Notes under the pieces: model-generated
What the model saw: only the letters and a program-made list of their open reading frames with translations
Database searches by the model: none
What the model was told of the DNA's origin: nothing
Translations under genes and position numbers: made by a program
In this document: positions 12,574 through 51,284 of the stretch, one piece after another
How positions within the stretch are numbered: position 1 is the stretch's first letter
Layout: every line of letters starts with the position of its first letter
Source: Oxalobacteraceae bacterium
Lineage (GTDB): Bacteria > Pseudomonadota > Gammaproteobacteria > Burkholderiales > Burkholderiaceae_D
Assembly (NCBI GenBank): GCA_023259175.1
Contig: JAHFQV010000001.1
Span: 42,411-106,410 of the forward strand
Length of the DNA stretch: 64,000 bases
Reading direction: 5' to 3'

Positions 12574-12580
12574 GCGCCTG

Positions 12581-12929
12581 AAGCAAGCCAGACAATCGCT
12601 GGCCTTGACGCTTGCGTCAAGGCGGGAGGAAGGTCCGGACTCCATAGAGCAGGGTGACGGCTAACGGCCGGACGCTGAAATTTTTTGTGAAAGCAAAAAT
12701 ATAAGGCGAGGAATAGGGCCACAGAGACGAGCGTATTTAGTTACGGTGAAACGCGGTAACCTCCACCCGGAGCAATTTCAAATAGGCACGCGTTGATGTG
12801 GCTCGCGGAGCGTGCGGGTAGAAAGCTTGAGCTAAAGAGTAATTTTTGGCCTAGAGGAATGATTGTCATAGCGCGATGCTCACGCAAAGCGCCGTAACAG
12901 AATCCGGCCTACCGGCTTGCTTCAATTCT
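12581..12929 (+). ncRNA. rnpB: RNase P RNA, bacterial class A
   Basis: The catalytic RNA of ribonuclease P, which trims 5' leaders from tRNA precursors. The ends pair as P1: GAAGCAAGCC at the 5' end with GGCTTGCTTC at the 3' end. The conserved core elements are visible: GGGAGGAAGGTCCGGACTCC, CAGGGTGACGGCTAACGGCC, and near the 3' end CAGAATCCGGCCTACCGGC. A length near 349 bases fits class A RNAs. It is absent from the ORF track, since it is not coding. It lies between the CHI-like gene and the GGDEF-EAL gene, all on the plus strand. The exact ends are uncertain by a few bases. Confidence 0.95.
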
Positions 12930-49426: not shown

Positions 49427-49868
49427 GATAAGCCTAGAGGGGAAAAGTGAATGCAGGATTATAGCTGCTAAGAAAGCTCGCGCCAAATTGAAAAAAAGCC
49501 GAGCTTAGCACCGACGTGAACGCCGGAACGGCCTGGCAAATTTGGTGCACGCCAAAGAACTCACCAGCATACCTTTTTCCTAATCCATATTTAGTTATAA
49601 TCTATTGGATTCTAATTTTTCATAGTGATAAACTTCGCTTCGTTGTTGAAGTTATGTCGGCCTAGCGGCCATTTAAACCGAGATTTTCCATTAGGATTTG
49701 AGATGATGGCGGATGCACTTTTCGAGGCAGGTTTGGCGTGAATGAGGCGCTCATGGCTAGCCATGAGCAACGAAGAACGTCAAAAATGACCGGAAATGCG
49801 CCGCCAGCACTTAAATAGCAGCTTTGCTGCGCCTAATGGAAAATCTCGGTTAAACTCAGGAGAATTCA
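49427..49868. promoter_or_regulatory. Divergent region between psd and the AhpC gene
   Basis: This 442-base region has no gene. TATAAT at 49596-49601 is a good -10 candidate for the AhpC gene. TTAG-N7-CTAT-N7-TAAT at 49591-49616 resembles part of an OxyR site but overlaps the -10 box. The rest is a long imperfect palindrome (49676-49851) that ends 17 bases before the start codon. Confidence 0.5.
49676..49851. repeat. About 176-bp long palindromic element in the AhpC gene leader
   Basis: The ends AACCGAGATTTTCCATTAGG and CCTAATGGAAAATCTCGGTT are perfect 20-base inverted repeats. Near the centre lies a perfect 20-base palindrome, GCTCATGGCTAGCCATGAGC (49749-49768). The flanks between are also partly complementary (GGCGGATGCA with TGCGCCGCC). 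The centres of outer arms and inner palindrome differ by only 5 bases, so the whole element can fold as one hairpin. No coding capacity is seen. It resembles a MITE or a dispersed palindromic repeat. Confidence 0.8.
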
Positions 49869-50417
49869 ATGAAAACAGTAGGACAAAAACTCGACGCATT
49901 TAGCGTACCCGCAGCCAAACCCGGTTTTAATCATCACGAAGAAAACGGTGTATCGGCCTTCGAAAATATCACCGAAGCCTCATTCCCAGGCAAGTGGAAA
50001 ATCATCTATTTCTACCCCAAAGATTTTACCTTTGTCTGCCCGACAGAGATCGTCGAATTTGCAAAATTAAATGACGATTTCGCAGAGCGTGACGCAGTCT
50101 TGATGGGCGGCTCCACCGACAATGAATTTTGTAAGCTAGCATGGCGTCGTGAGCACAAAGACCTCGACAAACTTAACCACTACGCCTTCGGTGATGCAAC
50201 CGGCGCCCTAGTCGATATGTTAGGTGTGCGTGACGTGAATGCAGGCGTGGCTTTACGTGCGACTTTTGTGGTTGATCCAGATAATGTGATTCAGCACGTT
50301 TCAGTTAATAATTTAAATGTAGGACGTAATCCTACAGAAATTTTGCGGATTTTGGATGGTTTGCAAACGGATGAGTTATGTCCATGTAATCGCAAAGTGG
50401 GCGGTGAAACATTGTAA
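49869..50417 (+). CDS. ahpC: AhpC/Prx1-type peroxiredoxin
   Basis: Typical 2-Cys peroxiredoxin of 182 residues, preceded by AGGAG. The peroxidatic Cys lies in FYPKDFTFVCPTEIVEF and the resolving Cys in DELCPCNRKVGGETL. GGSTDNEFCKLAWRREH and LRATFVVDPDN are typical of the AhpE-like/AhpC group that pairs with AhpD. No ahpF flavoprotein is near; the AhpD-like gene downstream is the likely reductant partner. The upstream palindrome and downstream 98-bp repeats flank this gene on both sides, so its mRNA ends are expected to be highly structured. Confidence 0.94.
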   Translation: MKTVGQKLDAFSVPAAKPGFNHHEENGVSAFENITEASFPGKWKIIYFYPKDFTFVCPTEIVEFAKLNDDFAERDAVLMGGSTDNEFCKLAWRREHKDLDKLNHYAFGDATGALVDMLGVRDVNAGVALRATFVVDPDNVIQHVSVNNLNVGRNPTEILRILDGLQTDELCPCNRKVGGETL

Positions 50418-50421
50418 ATCC

Positions 50422-50700
50422 AATTTTCGGGCGCAGCGCGTTGTTGCAAATCCTCGCAATATAGACATATTGCTGCGGTTTGCGCCTAGCGCTGCATCCC
50501 GAGAATTGAATTTACGATGAATTTTCAGGCGCAGCGCCTTGTTGCAAATCCTCGCAATATAGACCTATTGCTGCGGTTTGCGCCTAGCGCTGCACGCCGA
50601 GAATTGAATTTACGATGAATTTTCGGGCGCAGCGCGTTGTTGCAAATCCTCGCAATATAGACATATTGCTGCGGTTTGCGCCTAGCGCTGCTCGTCGAGA
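50422..50700. repeat. Three tandem 98-bp palindromic repeats
   Basis: Copies begin at 50422, 50520 and 50618 (AATTTTCGGG/AATTTTCAGG); the third ends after about 83 bases. Copies differ by only a few bases. Each contains an imperfect hairpin: GCGCAGCGC, GCAAA, CGCAATAT, loop AGAC, ATATTGC, GTTTGC, GCGCTGC. Unit length is not a multiple of 3, and no open frame spans them. Confidence 0.93.
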
Positions 50701-50707
50701 CTCGTAT

Positions 50708-50729
50708 AAAACCCGCTAGAGCGGGTTTT
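50708..50729 (+). terminator. Terminator-like hairpin before the AhpD gene
   Basis: AAAACCCGC and GCGGGTTTT form a perfect 9-pair stem with a TAGA tetraloop. The U-run is four bases, part of the stem. It would end or reduce transcripts coming from ahpC. Confidence 0.65.
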
Positions 50730-50756
50730 AAAATCTTTATTTAATAGGTGAAAACT

Positions 50757-51284
50757 ATGGAATTTCTATCTTTAATTAAATCTTATGTGCCGGACTATGC
50801 AAAAGACATTCGCTTGAACGTGGATAGTACGATAGCGCGTTCGAGTTTGGATGCGTCTGATGCGGTCGGCGTGGCGTTGGCGGCGGCGTTTGCGGCTAAG
50901 AATCAGACCTTGATCAAAGCCTTTAAAGAGGCGGGTGTTCTGTCGCCGGAAGAGGTGCAGGGGGCGATGACGGCAGCGTCTTTGATGGGGATGAATAATG
51001 TCTGGTATCCTTTTGTCGAAATGGCCGATGACGAGGATTTGAAAACCCAAGGTGCGCAATTAAGGATGAATGCCTACGCGAACAATGGTGGGCTCGATAA
51101 GCGCCGTTTCGAAATGTATGCGCTGGCCGCTTCGATTATCGGAAAGTGTCATTTTTGCGTGAAGTCGCATTTTGATTTGCTCAAGAAAGAAGGTATGTCG
51201 GCGACCCAGTTACGCGATGTCGGTCGGATTGTCGCTGTGGTGAATGCTTTGGCACAGGTATTGACGGCGGAAAATATCGTTTAA
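50757..51284 (+). CDS. ahpD: AhpD-like alkylhydroperoxidase (carboxymuconolactone decarboxylase family)
   Basis: I use ATG 50757, preceded by AGGTG; the track takes a GTG three codons earlier. The 175-residue all-helical protein matches AhpD in length. The catalytic CxxC with downstream His is GKCHFCVKSH near residue 130, and a Glu-rich proton relay segment lies before it. In mycobacteria AhpD reduces AhpC using lipoyl-linked electrons from dihydrolipoamide dehydrogenase and SucB; the same is inferred here from the adjacent ahpC. The gene follows ahpC after the repeat array. Confidence 0.92.
   Translation: MEFLSLIKSYVPDYAKDIRLNVDSTIARSSLDASDAVGVALAAAFAAKNQTLIKAFKEAGVLSPEEVQGAMTAASLMGMNNVWYPFVEMADDEDLKTQGAQLRMNAYANNGGLDKRRFEMYALAASIIGKCHFCVKSHFDLLKKEGMSATQLRDVGRIVAVVNALAQVLTAENIV

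Follow-up and report, generated by a model that had tools for sequence, protein, structure and literature searches.

Three tandem hairpins between ahpC and ahpD of an Oxalobacteraceae bacterium: a candidate local triplication of a dispersed palindromic repeat

ERIC and Correia-type repeats are transcribed intergenic palindromes of about 100-150 bp that can alter mRNA processing. To our knowledge, their sequences are unrelated to that of the hairpin analysed here. REPs, which are also found as BIMEs and carry GTAG or CGTC tags, are dispersed palindromes located mostly downstream of coding regions, often as dimers or clusters. Roles in mRNA stability and termination have been proposed for them, G-T pairing is often seen in the GTAG class, and REPs inserted within palindromes have been reported (PMC3733652). 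Template switching that both creates and maintains hairpins has been described for RNA hairpins (PMC8794818). The hairpin family presented below was detected in a window of 64,000 nucleotides, i.e. the whole stretch of DNA that was analysed, on contig JAHFQV010000001.1.

In this window, a tandem array is located between two genes on the forward strand that had been named ahpC and ahpD in a first-pass annotation. Both names agree with Pfam: ahpC (49869-50417) encodes a peroxiredoxin (AhpC-TSA, 7.8e-26) and ahpD (50757-51284, ATG at 50757) a member of the carboxymuconolactone decarboxylase family (CMD, 4e-15). Tandem Repeats Finder places the array at 50422-50700 with a period of 98, 2.8 copies and 93% matches. 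A repeat search yields units at 50422-50519, 50520-50617 and 50618-50715. Folding gives a single long hairpin interrupted by internal loops for every unit, with minimum free energies of -51.6, -37.5 and -38.4 kcal/mol for units 1, 2 and 3 (z = -6.8, -3.2 and -3.4 versus dinucleotide shuffles). The three palindromic 98-bp units recognised in the first-pass annotation were hence confirmed. Identity to unit 1 is 95% for unit 2 and 87% for unit 3, whose 3' end is degenerate. The true palindrome exceeds the unit: Copy 1 is a complete imperfect palindrome of 102 bp (50414-50515, forward strand; 117.5 bits with covariance model R1, alignment A1) that ends with GTAAATCC and GAATTTAC, and the ahpC stop codon (TAA, 50415-50417) lies inside its 5' arm. 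It is composed of the outer arm GTAAATYCAATT and the stems GGG/CCC, GCAGCGC/GCGCTGC, GCAAATCC/GGTTTGC and GCAATAT/ATATTGC with conserved internal loops between them. The 5' outer arm is absent from copies 2 and 3, which correspond to units 2 and 3 on the forward strand; copy 3 is without the 3' outer arm as well. This is expected from a tandem duplication of a 98-bp piece. A 74-bp core is identical in copies 1 and 3.

Contrary to the first-pass annotation, part of the gap is free of repeats. The 3' end of copy 3 runs into the leader of an intrinsic terminator or attenuator, AAAACCCGCTAGAGCGGGTTTT (50707-50730, forward strand), which has the form AAACCCGC..GCGGGTTT and is followed by the ahpD ribosome-binding site AGGTG (50746-50750). 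In a scan for intrinsic terminators (GC-rich hairpin with a direct T run), only this one was called and none of the repeats. It is conserved in the ahpC-ahpD gap of those relatives in which the gap is readable through to ahpD. Directly upstream of ahpC, a 182-bp MITE-like repeat unrelated to the array was found at 49673-49854 (no strand assigned) with 23-nt inverted ends TTAAACCGAGATTTTCCATTAGG. It has 66 matching pieces in its own genome and many in three relatives (G008, G009 and G014). This means, ahpC is enclosed by two unrelated palindromic repeats.

A genome-wide search had been proposed with the probe GCAATATAGACATATTGC. This probe is a poor choice because its loop varies between copies, but the search as such, performed with a 104-base query, was fruitful: Besides the three array copies, two further loci were found in the same genome, and the hairpin is present in 25 of 60 relatives (BLAST), nearly all from the same genus. 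Fifty diverse copies align without gaps over 104 columns (alignment A1). Their consensus forms a long stem that is interrupted by internal loops at constant positions, namely GTTGTT opposite CCTA, TC opposite TGC and C opposite AT. Two subfamilies can be distinguished in the genus. Type A, to which the window's copies belong, has the outer arms AAATYCAATT/AATTGAATTT, and type B the arms GGGAACTTCTAAAAACCC. Type B copies are 99-100% identical within G015/G013 with different flanks, and 4-bp target duplications (GTTT, CCAA, ATTA, AAAA) were read by eye, both of which indicate recent movement. By contrast, among 73 type A copies, 32 have the orthologous locus as their nearest relative, 32 a different locus in another genome and 9 a locus in the same genome, and core identity is 0.88 between orthologs versus 0.82 within one genome. 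Type A is therefore an old subfamily that was largely inherited in place. At one locus (L015, 1400-1503), a copy was observed whose inner internal loop is now perfectly paired (GCGAATGCTCGCAATATT..AATATTGCGAGCATTCGC), as expected for a palindrome correction event.

Type A is biased in position and orientation. A sense open reading frame ends -3 to 17 nt from the element (once at 31 nt) in 57 of 62 copies, corresponding to 31 of 36 loci directly behind a stop codon, where copies are not phylogenetically independent. The antisense side satisfies the same open-frame test in 20 of the 62 copies, as often as chance would produce in a crude test on short flanks, and antisense alone was found at only three loci. 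Type B is unbiased (four sense only, five antisense only). Loci with 1.5 kb of context confirm the sense and stop-codon bias of type A. The upstream genes, as judged by reading their translations, presumably encode isocitrate dehydrogenase, several thiolases, an acyl-CoA carboxylase, a mutase large subunit and an ABC transporter binding protein; others we take to be gcvH, pyk, purH and yebC. Type A has become a stable 3'-end element that is located in sense orientation directly behind stop codons, often in front of a co-directional downstream gene. The sense bias could, however, reflect survival of the copies and not function. Orthologous 3' ends that lack the element (L314, L316-L318, L322, L338, L339) carry other palindromic repeats, e.g. 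CCTCTCCCGC..GCGGGAGAGG or TAGGGCGGGTGAAACCCGCG.., as if such gene ends were hot spots for hairpins of various origins.

The first-pass annotation had associated the repeat with dispersed palindromes of Oxalobacteraceae. Dispersion was borne out, but the family limit was too narrow a description, as the repeat is found in the genus and its hairpin core, in diverged form, across the order. Covariance model R1 matches 65 of the 200 genomes and 44 of the 109 genera that were sampled from the order. Outside the genus, the core GCGTTGC ... GCGCCTTGC ... CATCCCG is embedded in longer MITE-like elements, often twice in opposed orientation, and the inverted ends of these elements differ, e.g. AAGAGCCTGTTCAACGTC, TAGGGCTCGTTAATGG and TAGAACCCATTTCATA. 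At nine loci from other genera (L239, L244, L245, L246, L250, L251, L255, L256 and L258), two opposed family hairpins lie a few bases apart inside one MITE-like element with a TA-type target duplication. A partial match was found on four Burkholderiales plasmids. A phage origin and a known RNA family were considered and rejected: Phage records contained no match, and Rfam 15 yielded none, neither at the gathering threshold nor at E <= 1. An integron attC site was likewise rejected, since on reading the core does not display the attC box pattern. The core strings had no text match in the open-access literature, and no description of the hairpin family was found in the literature on Oxalobacteraceae, Undibacterium or Burkholderiales repeats. 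The family is widespread and, as it appears, hitherto undescribed.

In kind, the element resembles REPs and MITEs. Like the GTAG- and CGTC-tagged REP/BIME sequences (PMC3733652), the family is dispersed, palindromic and often arranged as dimers or clusters, and the predominance downstream of coding regions is shared by type A. However, REPs comprise 20-40 bp, whereas the window's element has about 100 bp, its 102-bp palindrome lacks the terminal GTAG/CGTC tag, and G-T pairs, which are often seen in GTAG REPs (PMC3733652), are not favoured. Spreading by a RAYT was rejected, too: Of 46 genomes searched, 37 have Y1_Tnp genes, yet these genes are not accompanied by the hairpin. Model R1, run over the Y1_Tnp loci with 1.5 kb flanks, returned a single match (L207) several hundred bases away from an IS200-type gene. 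Similar to MITEs, inverted ends, short target duplications and a lack of coding capacity characterise type B and the relatives across the order, as judged by eye. For type A, in contrast, no direct target duplication could be recognised; the two flanks are inversely complementary, and the element is tied to stop codons in one orientation.

The copy number at ahpC differs between species, as had been anticipated. Three copies are found here, two in G016 and at least one in G008, in both of which the contig ends, and one each in G021, G023 and G009. Most other relatives have no copy at ahpC, so that the array is not required for ahpCD. An artefact of short-read assembly might come to mind, as the window originates from a draft of 233 contigs and the 74-bp core of copies 1 and 3 is identical. 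This is highly improbable: Several positions distinguish the units from each other, the array is situated within a contig of 109 kb, and the two copies at the ahpC site of the relative mentioned above are not identical either. A neutral mobile repeat of the MITE or REP kind that landed beside ahpC and was tandemly duplicated, devoid of function, would agree with the mobile behaviour of type B and the order-wide relatives, with the absence of the element from most ahpC loci of the genus and with only two other loci in the own genome. Yet different species retain type A at orthologous loci, and its orientation behind stop codons is nearly always the same; we consider a functionless repeat unlikely. 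A structured RNA under RNA-level selection, i.e. a 3' UTR hairpin that is bound by a protein or an RNase and whose pairing is kept by compensatory mutation, would account for the sense-strand and stop-codon bias, the conserved asymmetric internal loops and the strong covariation. Across the alignment, 96.4% of the cells are paired, 25 of 35 pairs show two-sided changes, and 208 two-sided stand against 9 one-sided changes in stem cells, counts that again derive from copies which are not phylogenetically independent.

If selection acted on an RNA, G-U should be better tolerated than A-C. However, G-T mismatches do not exceed A-C in the family stems (10 versus 17) or in the locus-specific outer stems of type A (3 versus 16). 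The class A RNase P RNA gene (window 12580-12927) served as a control and displays, within the same genus, 210 G-T and 1 A-C with 55 one-sided and 65 two-sided cells, although this structure is a prediction in its own right, the sequences are related, and a large share of the G-U pairs is fixed. This contrast is a strong hint, though not a proof, against upkeep at the RNA level. Together with the rarity of one-sided changes, the lack of an Rfam match and stems that reach into the locus-specific flanks and, at several loci, into host coding sequence, it makes RNA-level selection an improbable explanation. Pairing restricted to Watson-Crick pairs, and arms that match the coding sequence of the respective locus, are explained neither by a simple RNA nor by a protein-site reading. 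Outside the conserved arms, the left and right flanks of a given locus pair with one another; the mean score is 5.97 versus 1.13 after exchange of flanks between loci (200 swaps, maximum 1.92). Among orthologous copies, 12 pairs have changed on both sides where about one (1.1) was expected. In addition, 37 one-sided changes were counted, in part owing to alignment shifts; arm correction, if real, is consequently incomplete. The pairing pattern and the stems reaching into the flanks suggest upkeep at the DNA level, e.g. by template switching. As such a correction should also erase the conserved internal loops, some selection on the hairpin must be assumed. The outer stems might instead be old terminator hairpins into whose loop the element was inserted by target-site choice. 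This would fit loci where the stem is followed by a T run, such as ATTGCCC..GGGCAATTTTT at a thiolase locus, as well as the other hairpins often seen at orthologous sites without the element, and REPs within palindromes provide a precedent (PMC3733652). On the other hand, the empty orthologous sites that were read have no matching arms, and at yebC-purD the right arm matches GAATAAGATGAG, GAGTAAGC, TAGAATGA or CTGAG depending on the species, i.e. four different coding 3' ends consisting of the stop codon and the last codons. Template switching at the palindrome explains this co-change of the arm with the yebC coding end better than insertion. Insertion into old terminator loops accounts for part of the flank pairing; as a replacement for template switching it is doubtful.

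With moderate confidence, we regard the array as one member of a dispersed hairpin family of mobile origin that was triplicated locally, with type A as a 3'-end element, its copies serving as intercistronic stem-loops and its arms maintained at the DNA level. The asymmetric hairpin core is one that the family has in common with MITE-like elements across the order. The near-perfect stems and their growth into flanking and coding sequence would result from template switching at the palindrome. By analogy with REPs (PMC3733652), the transcribed hairpins would most likely block 3'-to-5' decay of the ahpC message. Along with the conserved terminator they may lower read-through into ahpD, and three copies would strengthen the stem-loop effect. 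Judged by position and orientation, stabilisation of ahpC mRNA and tuning of ahpD, both considered in the first-pass annotation, are plausible: The hairpins probably shield the message upstream of them and keep the level of the downstream one low. More tentatively, an undescribed, order-wide superfamily of asymmetric hairpins might have been taken up as a movable 3'-end cassette, whose arms would be rewritten time and again by template switching during replication, remaining perfect and growing into the host gene so that the palindrome comes to include the stop codon and the last codons. This is possible rather than likely.

For a core that is present in 44 of the 109 sampled genera, neither an Rfam family nor a matching open-access text was found. 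With its numerous natural replicates at gene ends that are known, the family lends itself to the question of how bacterial palindromes keep their arms identical, by template switching or by compensatory selection. In addition, it serves the question of how a mobile repeat turns into a fixed 3'-end element. As related species have 0 to 3 copies at the ahpC site, dosage between two linked stress genes could conveniently be studied there.
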